Origin: Geothrix oryzisoli
GTDB lineage: Bacteria; Acidobacteriota; Holophagae; Holophagales; Holophagaceae
Direction: 5' to 3'
Length of the DNA stretch: 64,000 nt
NCBI RefSeq assembly: GCF_022808865.1
Contig: NZ_JAKZLB010000003.1
Span: forward strand, 67,875 to 131,874
Position 1 is the first letter of the stretch; each line of letters starts with the position of its first letter. The translations under genes were made by a program, and so were the position numbers. Shown in pieces: positions 14,218 through 62,956 of this stretch. Below the pieces are notes generated by a model, which saw only the letters and a list, made by a program, of their open reading frames with translations, made no database searches and was not told where the DNA came from.

Positions 14218-14466
14218 GGCCGGCGCTCCTGGATTGCGGCTGGGAAGGCGGGCGTTTCACGGCACGCAAAACCATACCTGGAGATCGGATTCCTGGGTAA
14301 TTTCCTTTAATCGGGAACTCCCGGCCAGATTTTCATCTACGGCAGGCGGAACGGGATCGCCGAAGGCGTGGATGTCCGGCGCGGGGCCGGTCTGGGCGGC
14401 CCAGCTAGCCTCCCCCCAAGCGCCAGCTCGTGTGGGATCATGGGCTCCTGTTCTTTGGAGCACTGC

Positions 14467-15870
14467 ATGGCTTCCTTCGACCTCATCGTCATCGGCTCCG
14501 GCCCCGGCGGGTACATCGCCGCCATCCGCGGCGCCCAGCTGGGCCTGGCCACGGCCCTCGTGGAGAAGGATGCGGGCCTGGGGGGCACCTGCCTCCACCG
14601 CGGCTGCATCCCGGCCAAGACCTGGCTGGAGAGCGCCCACCGCTTCGAGCAGATGCAGGTGGCCGACGACTACGGCATCGACGGCGTGGACGCCAAGAGC
14701 CTGAAGGCCAACCTCGCCACCATCGTCAAGCGCAAGGGCCGCATCGTCCTGAAGAACGCCAAGGGCATCGAGTTCCTCATGAAGAAGAACAAGGTGACCG
14801 TGCTCAAGGGCTTCGGCAAACTGCTGGGCGGCGGGCGCGTGGATGTGGCGGGCGAAGTGCATGAGGCCAAGCGCATCATCCTGGCCACGGGATCGGCCCC
14901 CAAGCCCATCCCCGGCCTGGAGACCGATGGCGTCCGGGTGCTCAACAGCGACCACATCCTGGACCTCACCGAGCTGCCGAGCCACCTGGTGATCCTGGGC
15001 GCCGGCGCCATCGGCGTGGAGTTCGCCTCCGTGTTCAGCCGCCTGGGCTCCAAAGTCACCCTGGTGGAGTTCATGGACACGATCCTGCCCCTGGAGGACG
15101 AGGAGATCGGCCTCGAGCTGGCCAAGATCTTCAAGAAGACCTACAAGATGGACGTGCGCACCAAGACCAAGATCACCCGCATCGAGAAGCGGGCCGACGG
15201 CGTGGTGTGCTTCCTCGAAGGTGAGACCCCCGGCGAGGTGGTGGGCAGCCACCTGCTGGTGGCCGTGGGCCGCGCGCCCATGGTGGAGGGCATCGGCCTG
15301 GAGGCCACCAAGGCCCAGGTGGACCGCGGCTGCGTGGTCATCGACAAGTTCATGCAGACCGGCGAGCCCGGCCTCTACGCCATCGGCGACATCGTGCGCA
15401 CCCCCTGGCTGGCCCACGTGGCCAGCGACGAGGGCATCGTGGCCGCCGAGCACGCCGCCCAGAGCCTCGGCAAGGATGTGCATCCCCACCCCGTGCGCTA
15501 CGACCGTTTCCCCGCCTGCACCTACTGCGATCCCGAGGTGGGCACCATCGGCCTCAACGAGAAGGCCGCCCGGGCCAAGGGCTACGACGTGCAGGTGGGC
15601 ACCTTCCCCTTCGCGCCCATGGCCAAGGCCAACATCGTGGGCGAGCCCCACGGCTTCATCAAGATCGTGGCCGACAAGAAGTACGGCGAGATCCTCGGCA
15701 TCCACATCCTCGGCCCCAAGGCCACCGAGCTCGTGGCCTCCAGCGTGGCCCTCATGGGCGGCGAGTTCACCGTGGACGAGCTGATCAACACGATGTACCC
15801 GCACCCCAGCCTGAACGAAGTGTTCCCCGAGGCGGCGCGGGCGGTATACGGGCGGGCATTGAATATGTAG
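14467..15870 (+). CDS. lpdA: dihydrolipoyl dehydrogenase
   Basis: FAD flavoprotein, E3 component of 2-oxoacid dehydrogenase complexes or the glycine cleavage system; reoxidises dihydrolipoamide with NAD+. 467 residues. FAD motif GSGPGGYIAAIRGAQLG is at the N-terminus and the redox disulfide is GGTCLHRGCIPAK (Cys42/Cys47). The NAD-binding GAGAIGVEFASVFSRLG and the C-terminal HPHPSLNEVFPE with the His-Glu pair are present. The ATG at 14467 has GGAG six bases upstream. No E1/E2 gene is adjacent. A strong terminator follows. Confidence 0.97.
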   Translation: MASFDLIVIGSGPGGYIAAIRGAQLGLATALVEKDAGLGGTCLHRGCIPAKTWLESAHRFEQMQVADDYGIDGVDAKSLKANLATIVKRKGRIVLKNAKGIEFLMKKNKVTVLKGFGKLLGGGRVDVAGEVHEAKRIILATGSAPKPIPGLETDGVRVLNSDHILDLTELPSHLVILGAGAIGVEFASVFSRLGSKVTLVEFMDTILPLEDEEIGLELAKIFKKTYKMDVRTKTKITRIEKRADGVVCFLEGETPGEVVGSHLLVAVGRAPMVEGIGLEATKAQVDRGCVVIDKFMQTGEPGLYAIGDIVRTPWLAHVASDEGIVAAEHAAQSLGKDVHPHPVRYDRFPACTYCDPEVGTIGLNEKAARAKGYDVQVGTFPFAPMAKANIVGEPHGFIKIVADKKYGEILGIHILGPKATELVASSVALMGGEFTVDELINTMYPHPSLNEVFPEAARAVYGRALNM

Positions 15871-15904: not shown

Positions 15905-15940
15905 ATGCCAAAAACCGCCCGGCTGGGCGGTTTTTGGCAT
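15905..15940. terminator. bidirectional terminator after lpdA
   Basis: A perfect 16-bp stem (arms 15905-15920 and 15925-15940, loop GGCT) contains an A5/T5 tract near its base on both strands. It ends lpdA and marks the boundary with the lower-GC cassette region. Confidence 0.85.
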
Positions 15941-15956
15941 GGGGTGAAATTTTGAG

Positions 15957-16050
15957 TGTTGACGAATGGGACTAACCGACTCCGCCTGCACCGACGCTGT
16001 GGGCGGAGCCGAGGAAGCTGGAAATCTCGAGAAAGCGAAAGGCTAGGCCG
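15957..16050 (-). other. attC-like recombination site of the TIG-lipoprotein cassette
   Basis: On the minus strand the site reads GGCCTAGCCTTTCGCT at its 5' side, aligned with the ACCTAACCTCTCGCT of the better site at 16851-16974. A CGGCTCCGCC/GGCGGAGTCG stem follows, then CATTCGTC. It shares the blocks ACGAATG, CTA and GCCTGCACCGA with the other site. The outer core is degenerate (GTCAACA rather than GTTRRRY), so the exact cut point is uncertain. Confidence 0.5.
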
Positions 16051-16101
16051 ACGGCACCCGACGGCGAATGCTGTCCATTTATATCAAATAATCACCCAAT
16101 T

Positions 16102-16818
16102 TTAGGGTTTGTTAATTGTGAAAGACTGGGATGAAGTCCACCAGACGTCTGGAGTGGATACAAAGACGCCAACAACTTCAGATGTCATCAGTGCACTCGC
16201 GGGGACCTGGGCCTGTAGTTCAGTTGCACTGACATAAGTGGTCTTGAGCGGATAGGCGGGAGGCGAGAAGCTCGAGTTCCACATGACAACAGAATCCGGG
16301 GAAAACCCGGTACCGGTGGCGATCAATGTAAAACCTGCTGACCCAGCGGTAGCGCTTGCAGGTGTGATGCTGTTTAAATTGGGGAGAAAAGCCACAACGG
16401 TAATTTTTTTGCTCAAGACATTCGATACATTTCCTGTGGTTGTTTCCAATTGAATTTCATTGGTAAAAACACCGACGGAAGCATTGTTTACCTGAAGTCT
16501 GCACACAATGGTATTGACGTCAGGGCCATAAATGGTCCCGAAGGAAGAACCGATATACCCGTTGCCGCTGAGCAGCCTCATCCCTTTGATGGGTCCTACT
16601 GAAGGGCTTACATCAACAGAAACATCGGCCAGGGCTTGTCCGGTTTGGGTAAATAAGCTCGGTGAAATGGTGAGGTTCGAGATCGTAAAGCTAGGTTGTT
16701 TGGGAACGCTCACCCCATTGCTACCACTGGCATTGCCACCACCGGCATTGCCGCCGCCGCAGGCCATGGCAAGGGCAATGATCATTACGGCCGAAAAGGC
16801 TCGAATGTCTCTAAACAT
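16102..16818 (-). CDS. TIG/IPT-domain lipoprotein in a cassette
   Basis: 238 residues with a lipoprotein signal (MFRDIRAFSAVMIIALAMACGGG), a Gly/Asn/Ser linker, a first beta domain and a C-terminal IPT/TIG-like domain (NSITPASATAGSAGFTLIATGTGFSPDSVV). Predicted surface or periplasmic lipoprotein; binding target unknown. The ATG at 16818 has GGAG upstream. Base composition is clearly lower in GC than the surroundings. It lies between two attC-like sites and in the same orientation as the RelA/SpoT gene, as cassette genes do. Confidence 0.8.
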   Translation of the reverse strand: MFRDIRAFSAVMIIALAMACGGGNAGGGNASGSNGVSVPKQPSFTISNLTISPSLFTQTGQALADVSVDVSPSVGPIKGMRLLSGNGYIGSSFGTIYGPDVNTIVCRLQVNNASVGVFTNEIQLETTTGNVSNVLSKKITVVAFLPNLNSITPASATAGSAGFTLIATGTGFSPDSVVMWNSSFSPPAYPLKTTYVSATELQAQVPASALMTSEVVGVFVSTPDVWWTSSQSFTINKP

Positions 16819-16850
16819 GGGAGACTCCAGGAAAGGAATGGCAAGAGCGG

Positions 16851-16974
16851 CCTAAACGAATGAAGCTAGGCGGCCACGCCTGCACCGAGAGGATGAGCGA
16901 AGTCGAGATAGCGAAATGACGAGAGAGAGCGGAAGGCAATGCAGGCGGGGCCCGACTTGAGCGAGAGGTTAGGT
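16851..16974 (-). other. attC-like site of the RelA/SpoT cassette
   Basis: On the minus strand it starts with ACCTAAC (fits RYYYAAC), then CTCTCG and CTCAAGTCGGGCC, closely like the R''-spacer-L'' of known attC sites (for example aadA cassettes, from memory). Arms CCCCGCCTGCA and TGCAGGCGTGG can pair with one mismatch. It ends with GTTTAGG, one base off GTTRRRY. Its first 11 bases (TGTAACCTAAC, 16968-16978) are the exact complement of the cassette start at 18095-18105, the property expected of a mobile cassette. Confidence 0.7.
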
Positions 16975-16987
16975 TACAGGCCTCAAC

Positions 16988-18076
16988 CTATGAAGTCTGA
17001 ATTTCTTCAAATATCTTGATTGCTCTCTCGGCTTCTTGTTCACGGCCTTCCTCAGCACCGATCCGAAAGTGGTTCAAGTATTCGACAAAAGCACTCTTAT
17101 CTTGTCTCGCAGCCATTAGTAAATAGCCGAGGTAAAGAGTGCCAATGCCGGTGGGAAACCTTGTGTATGTCTTTTTAGAAAACCACTTCTTTGCGAACAT
17201 TGCAGCTGAATTCTGATTCTGCTTCGCCATCTGCTCAGCTTCAGACACTGTGCTAATGCCCAAATATAGAAGCCGACTTAGTAGCCGCTCGTAGACGTCA
17301 TTCGTTCCTTCATCTAGCTTGGCTGAAACAATGGCAGCAATCGCTCGGTCCAGTTCTACTAGAGCGGAGCCGCTGCTGTAGAGAGATTTCAAGGCCGGTA
17401 GATCTAGGTCAATGTTCTTTTCATTATCCGCAATTTTCTTACCAACTTCCAACTCGTAGCCCTTAAGTTCCTCACGGAGCGCACAAAATTCATCATCTGC
17501 AATTTCGAGGAGTCCGGCCACTCGGGCAAATCGACGTCGAATGCCTCTGGGAACGCCGCTTGCGGATTTGTATCCAAGGTCATGCTCAATCTCAGCCCAT
17601 GCGTGTTGAAGGATCGATCTAATCTGGATTTCGAATTTTTTGCCAGCGAAGGTTTTATATTCGATTAACTCTCTTCTCGACGAGCTCAGAAGTGCGACAT
17701 AGTGCAAGGACTGGTAACCAAATCTATCCGGATCTATTGAAGTGCGTTTGTCGATCGAGTTGTTTCTGTCAATTTCAAACTCACGTTCAACTACTTCGGC
17801 GACTCTGTCCACATCTGTGGCGAAGTAGGTTGTGACTCTGATTCCGGCTAGGTCTGTAATCTCATTAAGAGATTGGTAAGATTTCTCAGGCTTGCTTACC
17901 TTTCTAGAAAAGCTCTCGATCGATTTGCAACGGCTTGTAGTGGAGTGCACTACAATTCCTTCTCTCACAAGAATTTGCGAGAGAAGATCGGCCATCTTTG
18001 AACTCAATTGCTTATAGGTGCTGTTCTCGGAAGCATATTCAATTACAAGCTCACTACCTTCTTTTGACTCGCTCAT
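16988..18076 (-). CDS. RelA/SpoT-type nucleotide pyrophosphokinase in a gene cassette
   Basis: 362 residues; stand-alone synthetase domain of the RelA_SpoT family (about residues 15-175) and a helical C-terminal half without a recognised motif. Synthetase landmarks are present: RCKSIESFSRK, DLAGIRVTTYF, DRFGYQSLHYV (G-loop Tyr121) and FEIQIRSILQHAWAEIEHDLGYK (Glu149). No HD hydrolase, TGS or ACT domain is seen. It should transfer pyrophosphate from ATP to a nucleotide (ppGpp type) or to tRNA; toxic members of this family act in anti-phage or toxin-antitoxin systems, but no antitoxin gene is adjacent. The ATG at 18076 has AGGAG five bases upstream; a TTG five codons earlier is less likely. GC content is far below the genome level. 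Confidence 0.85.
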   Translation of the reverse strand: MSESKEGSELVIEYASENSTYKQLSSKMADLLSQILVREGIVVHSTTSRCKSIESFSRKVSKPEKSYQSLNEITDLAGIRVTTYFATDVDRVAEVVEREFEIDRNNSIDKRTSIDPDRFGYQSLHYVALLSSSRRELIEYKTFAGKKFEIQIRSILQHAWAEIEHDLGYKSASGVPRGIRRRFARVAGLLEIADDEFCALREELKGYELEVGKKIADNEKNIDLDLPALKSLYSSGSALVELDRAIAAIVSAKLDEGTNDVYERLLSRLLYLGISTVSEAEQMAKQNQNSAAMFAKKWFSKKTYTRFPTGIGTLYLGYLLMAARQDKSAFVEYLNHFRIGAEEGREQEAERAIKIFEEIQTS

Positions 18077-18377
18077 GGTTCTCCTGGACAACTTTGTAAC
18101 CTAACTAGAATTAGACGATCAGAGCGGAGAGGGGCGAGGATCGCCCAATTTGGGAGTACAGAGACGTTACTGCTGATCGGATATCAAAATCATGAGATGA
18201 ATCGACATGCTTAGGCACTCGAAAAGTGTTACGGCCTAAGTCGTTGGTGAACACTAAGGGCCGTTTGGTTCGCCTCATGAAGACACGCTTATCTCGTATC
18301 CCCAAGGGAATCATCCGAACGGGCGAATTCAATCCCCGAACGGGGAGGCCAAACCCCCAACAGGACTCACGCTAGCC
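18077..18377. other. low-GC intergenic stretch at the edge of the cassette region
   Basis: The cassette start core (minus strand GTTAGGT, 18099-18105) is at the left end. A 73-codon frame on the minus strand (18111-18332) has no similarity I recognise and is left uncalled. A CCCCGAACGGGG hairpin (18334-18345) and a hairpin with CTTAGGC/GCCTAAG arms (about 18210-18240) are present. No integrase gene and no clear attI site was seen. Confidence 0.5.
18095..18105 (-). other. 5' boundary of the RelA/SpoT cassette
   Basis: GTTAGGTTACA on the minus strand fits the integron core GTTRRRY. The predicted exchange point is between G (18105) and TTAGGT. It is the exact inverted repeat of 16968-16978, at the R'' end of the cassette's own attC-like site. 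Confidence 0.65.
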
Positions 18378-19196
18378 TCAACACCGCGCGCAGAAGTGCG
18401 GCGGCGCGGGCAGGCGGGAGAGGCCTTCGAAGGCCAGCTCCCAGGCTCGGGCGGGCCCGCGGAAGGCGGTGGCTTCAAGGGTGAGCGTGCGCAGCGCGTG
18501 GAGGGGCGCGGGGTCGCCGGGCAGGGGCAGGAAGGGGATCGGCTGGCCCGTGGCCGCGCGCAGGGCCGTGCGCAGGGCGGTCGTGAGCGCCGTGCCCTCC
18601 GGCAGCACCAGGGGCGGCACCCGCAGCTCGGCGCCCTCGGGCAGGGGCACGCCGGGCCAGAGGTCCGCTTCGAAGCCGCCGTGCTGCTCGTGGTCCGGGG
18701 CCTCGCGCCACTCGGGCCGGCGGAAGGTCATCTTGCGGCGGGCCTTGTCCCAGTCCGGCAGGAACAGCTTCAGATCCGCCTTCTCCAGGGGGCCCATGGG
18801 GGCCTTCTCCAGGGCCACGGGCACGGCCCGGGCGACGCGGCCCGGCAGGCGCCGGACCAGCATGGGCTTCCCGTCCAGCCAGGGCAGGCCCGCATCCAGC
18901 GCGCAGACCAGGGCGCCCAGGCGGCGGCGGTGGAGCTGCAGGGCCTGGGCCAGGTCGCAGCCGGGCGCGGGTACGAGGCCCAGCACGTTCACCGCCAGGC
19001 CCCGGGCGTGGACAGTGGCCGCGGCGGAGAGGGGCTCCCGCAGGTCTTCCGCCGTGCGGCCCAGCACCAGGATCTGCGGCAGGCCATGCCCCTGGATGCG
19101 CTCCACGAGCACCAGGCTGCCGCCACCAGAAGCGCCGGGGGCCGACAGCACCGCCCCGCCCAGCTCAGCGGCGAGGCGCAGGGCCTCGGGGTTCAC
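18378..19196 (-). CDS. hypothetical protein
   Basis: 272 residues, not recognised. It is Ala/Leu/Pro/Arg-rich, with no signal peptide and no membrane helix. The N-terminal half looks like alternating strands and helices (GGSLVLVERIQGHGLPQILVLG, GLAVNVLGLVPAPG). The C-terminus ends with HFCARC, a CxxC pair. Codon use matches the high-GC genome, unlike the adjacent cassette region. The start is GTG at 19196; no ATG is available in this frame upstream, so the true start is uncertain. Confidence 0.55.
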   Translation of the reverse strand: MNPEALRLAAELGGAVLSAPGASGGGSLVLVERIQGHGLPQILVLGRTAEDLREPLSAAATVHARGLAVNVLGLVPAPGCDLAQALQLHRRRLGALVCALDAGLPWLDGKPMLVRRLPGRVARAVPVALEKAPMGPLEKADLKLFLPDWDKARRKMTFRRPEWREAPDHEQHGGFEADLWPGVPLPEGAELRVPPLVLPEGTALTTALRTALRAATGQPIPFLPLPGDPAPLHALRTLTLEATAFRGPARAWELAFEGLSRLPAPPHFCARC

Positions 19197-62740: not shown

Positions 62741-62881
62741 AAAGCGAAGCCCGGCTGGGCCGGGCTTCGCGCGGGGGTCCGGGGGGAGGCTCCACCTCCG
62801 CGAGCCTGAAGGGCGAGTGGAAGCCCCGTCCGCGTGGCGTCAGGTGGAGGCGCGCAGCGCGACCTTGGCTCCCGGAGAGTA
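62741..62881 (-). repeat. post-stop element, tandem second copy (diverged)
   Basis: A 27-bp segment with the GCCCGGCTGGGCCGGGC hairpin at 62741-62767 is repeated exactly at 62881-62907. This outer copy carries the same GCGGGGGTCCGGGGG block but has an insertion of about 60 bp before the GCGCGCAGCGCG core (62850-62861) and the CTCCCGGAG end. Confidence 0.7.
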
Positions 62882-62956
62882 AAGCGAAGCCCGGCTGGGC
62901 CGGGCTTTGCGCGGGGGTCCGGGGGTGTGCGCGTAGCGCGTAAACCCCGGAGAATA
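62882..62956 (-). repeat. post-stop element, copy 6 (after the small beta-barrel gene)
   Basis: In gene sense: TAATATTCTCCGGGG from the stop, the CGCGCTACGCGCACACCCCCGG core and the AAAGCCCGGC/GCCGGGCTT hairpin. It lies between the convergent ubiD and beta-barrel genes. Confidence 0.8.

Follow-up and report, generated by a model that had tools for sequence, protein, structure and literature searches.

The window analysed here, a stretch of 64,000 nucleotides from Geothrix oryzisoli, carries two integron cassettes on the minus strand, between positions 18104 and 15963. They lie between two conserved host genes, lpdA (14368..15870, plus strand), which encodes dihydrolipoyl dehydrogenase, and a gene for a protein of 272 residues with no Pfam match (18378..19196, minus strand). 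Cassette 1 (16857..18104, minus strand) begins at a cut that follows the G at 18105, ends with the G in the R' box of its own attC at 16857, and contains the gene of a 362-residue protein with a RelA/SpoT domain (16988..18076, minus strand, ATG at 18076). Cassette 2 (15963..16856, minus strand) is bounded by cuts in the attC sites of the two cassettes, its right junction being aligned with related genomes, and encodes a putative lipoprotein of 238 residues with a CoaZ_rpt_PGGG domain (16102..16818, minus strand). The probable terminator of lpdA, a hairpin whose 16-bp arms pair perfectly, is found 22 bp from the right junction (15905..15940, plus strand). The GC content is 0.45-0.55 in the cassette region versus 0.60-0.78 in the flanks.

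The RelA/SpoT gene had been read as an integron cassette in a first-pass annotation made from the sequence alone, and the boundaries of cassette 1 agree exactly with this reading. GTTAGGTTACA at 18105-18095 matches TGTAACCTAAC at 16978-16968 (minus strand) in inverted orientation over 11 bases, so that the start of the cassette is complementary to the R'' box of its own attC over this length. Ten GTTRRRY/RYYYAAC pairs lie 300-3000 bases apart in the window, seven in one order and three in the other, and the 11-base match is unique to the pair of cassette 1. The same complementarity rule applies in the main array of the genome, where 21 of 27 junctions show matching runs of 7-12 bases. The annotation had also proposed covariance models as a check, and R1, a model built from 29 main-array attC of the same genome with neither window site in its training set, recovers both sites: the attC of cassette 1 (16849..16975, minus strand; R'' ACCTAAC at 16974-16968, R' GTTTAGGC at 16857-16850) with 117.6 bits and E 8e-29, and a degenerate last attC (15956..16080, minus strand) with 51 bits and E 4e-11. 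Given its degenerate attC, cassette 2 may be locked in. A third R1 match of 57 bases (62869-62925, 20.7 bits, E 0.0045) probably arose by chance, and a search of the window against Rfam gave no match at gathering scores. The R' box of the first attC contains one extra T compared with the usual GTTAGGC, and DNA folding taken alone gives modest values (at the first site, z -1.6 for one strand and -2.3 for the other; at the second site, -1.3), two main-array attC folding more strongly, with z -4.3 and -4.9. The organization is nevertheless that of gene cassettes, in which a gene precedes an attC that combines R''/R' boxes with an imperfect palindrome, with a degenerate second site and with both sites folding more weakly than the two from the main array.

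No IntI match was found in the window, and in a search of the whole genome the sole match on contig C3, to which the window belongs, scored 18.7 bits. Since no integrase adjoins it, the array is by the usual definition a CALIN of two attC, as the annotation had proposed, with a second cassette behind the first. The absence of an integrase, which the annotation had stated for the vicinity, is only local, because the genome encodes a full-length IntI elsewhere (C4:518770-519714; TIGR02249, 466 bits versus a cut-off of 265), accompanied by a main array of 31 attC; a genome devoid of integrase is thereby ruled out. The nearest solved structure to this protein is 2a3v (E 6e-82), the IntI4 of Vibrio cholerae. 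Three attC of the main array are located beside intI at the end of contig C4 and 28 near the end of C2, and we infer that the two parts form one array; its attC are 76-91% identical to the window site. By BLAST, the genome contains 44 attC-like sites, 13 of them outside the main array and two of these 13 in the window, and besides the main array and the window there are four other small attC clusters; a covariance search returned 46 attC at E<=1e-4. In the genus, 25 of 41 genomes encode an IntI above the cut-off, and three of the 41 (G011, G012, and G027) encode two. G012 also has a divergent integron-type integrase of 95.8 bits, below the cut-off (C4:632937-633452), which lies 1.4 kb away from a solitary attC at C4:634823. 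In G048, a genome with just 14 attC, intI is broken into two pieces, one with a stop (C1:774208-775153).

The first-pass annotation, right about the cassettes, overlooked an attI-like core in front of cassette 1 (18099..18116, minus strand; pattern match G000:C3:85975, G000 being this genome). This core consists of an L box, GTCTAA (18116-18111), a 5-nt spacer, and the cut site G^TTAGGT (18105-18099), and a GGCGATC box recognized by eye (18139..18145, minus strand) lies near the place that GGCGAAC occupies in the attI beside intI. The latter attI reads GTCCAA-N6-G^TTAGGC in the same genome, and its 6-nt spacer recurs at the lpdA sites of G022 and G049. A position weight matrix (PWM) trained on 12 intI-adjacent attI gives the lpdA site a score of 15.1, equalled by none of 2188 background GTT, with the proviso that the matrix favours any C-rich flank because the training attI are C-rich. 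The part of the PWM that covers the upstream box (positions -46 to -33) scores 7.0 here versus -1.5 in G022. The site therefore combines the L and R boxes, the spacer of about 6 nt, and the upstream box of an attI, though its spacer is 5 nt and the upstream box is weak in G022. Because intI is not adjacent but on contig C4, we term the site attI-like rather than attI.

Comparison of the lpdA locus in related genomes, which the annotation had likewise proposed, revealed differences that fall exactly at the cassette boundaries, the opposite of the shared region lacking such boundaries that the annotation had named as a refutation. The loci of 11 relatives (one of which, L144, ends at a contig end) were compared, together with those of G022 and G049, which share both flanks with this genome (88-89% identity over 1.1 kb on the left and 93-94% over 1.6 kb on the lpdA side). 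On the left, homology with these two ends at 18105, where the cut is predicted within G^TTAG, and it restarts past the G of the last R' box on the right: the 120 bp left of the cut are 82% (G022) and 79% (G049) identical, versus 56% and 53% for the 120 bp on the cassette side and 49% for shuffled sequences. G022 and G049 each have two R1 matches beside lpdA. R1 matches were also found there in G006, G007, G001, and G010, weak ones in G007 (36.5 bits) and G001 (29.5 and 17.4 bits), and the R1 search of loci L137 and L139-L144 gave no attC match. G011 shows the arrangement free of any insert, with 19 bp between lpdA and the following gene. The 15 proteins encoded at the locus in seven genomes are unrelated, every blastp pair having an E value of 0.2 or worse; some left ends were not located, so not all of these genes are proven cassettes. 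Three species do carry different cassettes at one lpdA site. As to cassettes moving as units between arrays, the comparison shows this difference at one site, and no cassette was seen at two places. Between the two weak attC matches of G001, the cargo encodes a defence protein of the TIR-TM type (L136:3483-4352; PADLOC, 386.7 bits). In G010, a second stretch resembling the 3' end of lpdA (74%; oriented L138 2265-2495) precedes an attC cluster.

Several genomes of the genus carry arrays of attC distant from intI, and most of those whose left end was resolved start like the one at lpdA. We examined the left ends of 38 such ectopic clusters, located by end complementarity alone under one fixed rule; this set leaves out the clusters cut by contig ends (G007 C8 and C29 and G012 C3) and the G007 lpdA site. 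The left end was resolved automatically in 20 clusters and not in the other 18. RTCYAA at a spacer of 5-6 nt precedes the cut in 16 of the 20 resolved heads, or 14 with first-ranked candidates only, compared with about 0.2% expected by base count (8/4096); among the 16, the head at G002 1196 was taken from a tied second candidate and that at G002 1576 was resolved from a first, truncated attC. The remaining four heads have near misses or different sequences. Several heads being orthologous, the independent ones are fewer, about 15 sites. With the PWM, 18 of 21 ectopic junctions, again not all independent, are equalled by at most 11 of the 2188 background GTT, and the other three fit poorly (64, 190, and 647 of 2188). 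The pattern CGTCYAAN{5,6}GTTRG has 33 matches in six genomes versus 5 for the reversed pattern. All 15 matches in G000 (5), G040 (4), and G002 (6) are at attC arrays, three of them inside main arrays; three of the other 18 were placed. An L box precedes 32 of 216 GTTAGG and 38 of 2512 GTTRR, a count that includes true sites and overlapping loci and is hence no control.

Some of these distant arrays are large. G040, a single contig, has a main array of 33 attC and, about 950 kb away with no intI nearby, a second one of 35 attC (G040:C1:1528475-1546619). The main array of G002 comprises 20 attC and its distant arrays 36 (C1:1576662-1596028), 25 (C1:846346-861121), and 6; the two larger ones likewise have no intI nearby. 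The arrays of 35 and 36 attC are among those headed by an attI-like core. The 600 bp upstream of the heads are 87% identical between G002 1576 and G040 1546 and 90% between G002 1196 and G040 3245, indicating that the paired heads are shared loci. In G002, short attC matches of 67-68 bases recur between full attC sites, for example at C1:1586530-1586597.

A stretch of about 215 bp in which no gene was found ends in an attI-like site rather than in an attC. Two copies are present in the main array of this genome (G000:C4:521117-521335, or L010 about 1117-1335, and G000:C2 about 718530-718745), and the element also occurs beside intI in G006 and G033 (loci L146 and L155), with 86-94% identity. 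The heads of G002 1576 and G040 1546 are similar to its 3' part (77-86% over 111-176 bp), and the lpdA site of G010 resembles the element better than any of 500 shuffled sequences did. The lpdA site of this genome shows no significant likeness to this second type of attI over 75 bp, 309 of 2000 shuffles being as good. New attI-like platforms may be seeded by this 215-bp element, which would then be mobile.

Based on the sequence comparisons above, we propose that the two cassettes quite probably occupy a secondary docking site in the chromosome, on the downstream side of lpdA, with an attI-like core on which IntI would act in trans and with exchangeable cargo. In such a docking site, the cut G^TT would be preceded at 5-6 nt by the L box RTCYAA and at about 34-40 nt by a box of the GGCGA type. 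The IntI encoded elsewhere would recombine circular cassettes, through their attC, into the lpdA site, and could also excise cassettes from it; as cassettes are inserted and removed, the site would persist while its cargo varies between species. In this reading, IntI would act on the lpdA site and exchange would be continuing there. Because the site is far from intI and relatives hold different genes at it, it seems that several docking sites around the chromosome share a single integrase. A tentative extension, which could well go either way, is that of a distributed integron, in which one integrase would serve several attI-like platforms across the chromosome, the lpdA platform being kept while its cassettes change, other platforms lying at shared loci, and seeding by the 215-bp element being possible.

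Three other explanations have to be weighed against exchange at a docking site. Off-target insertion, intI loss, and rearrangement have all been put forward as origins of CALINs (PMC8618304), and IntI1 has been reported to use secondary sites of GNT consensus at very low frequency (PMC3518468). A single landing in a nonspecific attG (GNT) that was inherited and eroded, the L box being incidental, could explain the array, and the degenerate last attC fits such erosion. We consider this quite unlikely, since the L box stands at the same spacing in most resolved ectopic junctions, far above expectation, and since one site holds different cassettes in three species. Import of the low-GC genes on a transposon or an island, with inverted repeats of 11 bp at its termini, would account for the inverted ends and the low GC content; the annotation itself had named a transposase with these repeats as its ends as evidence against a cassette. 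Neither cassette gene encodes a transposase, and one of the supposed ends lies inside an attC of which the genome contains 44 copies, including 13 away from the main array. We give this reading practically no credence and have dropped it.

The array might also be the relic of a second complete integron, whose intI formerly lay upstream of the attI-like site and has since been lost. The genomes with two IntI show that a second integrase does occur in the genus, and the ectopic cluster at G048 2518 has the relic of an intI N terminus about 0.9 kb upstream (65 residues, 62% identity, minus strand, L180:1934-2128), placed much as in a main array, so this cluster may have arisen by degradation of an integron. 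The core at lpdA and the flanking host gene, which relatives also have beside lpdA, are only 262 bp apart. A tblastn search with IntI in 46 loci gave matches only at five loci beside intI and at the G048 2518 relic, with no trace at lpdA or where the large G002 and G040 arrays begin (upstream stretches of about 3-4 kb), and G002 and G040 have a single IntI each at E<=1e-20. We therefore regard an integron relic as unlikely at lpdA, and suggest that degraded integrons may contribute to the ectopic clusters, G048 2518 at least.

Cassette 1 most likely encodes an active synthetase of the (p)ppGpp type. PF04607 covers residues 48-172 of the protein with 78.9 bits versus a gathering cut-off of 27, and the C-terminal part is all helical. 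The structure model (pLDDT 93.9) contains a small-alarmone-synthetase core followed by this helical part, and its best Foldseek match is SAS1 (5dec, TM 0.78 by target). D75, R80, Y121, and E149, which we take to be the catalytic residues, are invariant in the 42 sequences of the alignment. The protein thus shares its catalytic domain with the small alarmone synthetases SAS1/RelQ and RelP, yet at 362 residues it has about 140 further helical residues; with CapRel it aligns only at TM 0.35-0.37. By making alarmones of the (p)ppGpp type, the enzyme would slow growth, perhaps as a protection from phage. Support for such a defence role, though it is possible, is weak. Membership of the PADLOC family PDC-S33 was rejected, since the match of 56.2 bits covers only model positions 66-175 of 349, the catalytic core, and for 115 neighbour ORFs (of 122 called) of relatives no PADLOC family occurred in more than two members at E<=1e-10 among the matches listed (best 25 of 75 families). 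The gene is present in 1 of 47 genomes of the genus (E<=1e-10). Related proteins are widespread, with 301 of 346 candidate contig stretches encoding one (34-52% identity for the best 80 of the 301), and 28 plasmid records carry relatives, all below 60% identity. None of 79 relatives had complementary ends of at least 8 bases plus GTTRRRY, which gives no sign of a family habitually carried as a cassette. No promoter-like site stands out before the gene (2 in the region versus 2.1 expected). The product of cassette 2 (NF058597, 68.9 bits) is probably a lipoprotein; a relative with 32% identity is encoded between attC in the main array of the same genome, and one with 70% identity beside an attC in G007.

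CALINs have mostly been regarded as debris or chance insertions. If arrays lacking intI are indeed platforms headed by attI-like sites, one integrase could run several cassette stores per chromosome, each under different local transcription. The proposed docking sites may be likened to attG sites, reportedly described by Loot et al. (2024, Nat Microbiol) as places in the chromosome, apart from the integron, into which cassettes insert. Insertions at attG in E. coli are broadly scattered according to a paper citing Loot et al. 2024, whereas the sites described here have an L box in common, and some of them occupy one locus across several species. With the attI of integrons they have in common the L box, the 6-nt spacer, G^TTAGG, and the upstream box, and a 19-base core, CGTCCAATTCAAAGTTAGG, is identical in the heads of G040 2640 and G007 C17 and in the intI-adjacent attI of G000; they differ from attI in not being adjacent to intI, and at lpdA in this genome in a spacer of 5 nt. 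The IntegronFinder authors state (PMC9024848) that attI is poorly described outside class 1, so attI-like heads would escape routine scans. The literature on integrons and CALINs in Geothrix, Holophaga, and Acidobacteri(ota), as represented by titles and abstract openings with few subscription papers, reports no attI-headed arrays in this group, and in literature of the same extent we found no report of an "orphan attI" integron. A close parallel is reported in Xanthomonas, where a sedentary chromosomal integron with an intI-linked array coexists with CALINs at conserved loci apart from intI, their positions being relatively conserved across species (PMC12444791). The distant arrays described here differ in starting with an attI-like core and in being able to exceed the main array (35 versus 33 attC in G040; 36 and 25 versus 20 in G002), large CALINs having been reported with fewer attC than complete sedentary integrons (PMC9024848). 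The delta-attI cassettes of mobile integrons are reported also to end downstream in an attI instead of an attC and to be functional with IntI1 (PMC12901181); the 215-bp element differs from them in having no detectable gene and in residing in a chromosomal integron. CALINs and off-target insertion are already known, and chromosomal arrays headed by attI-like sites appear to be new; the named sites and the core motif RTCYAA-N5/6-G^TT make the long-open origin of integrase-less arrays directly testable.
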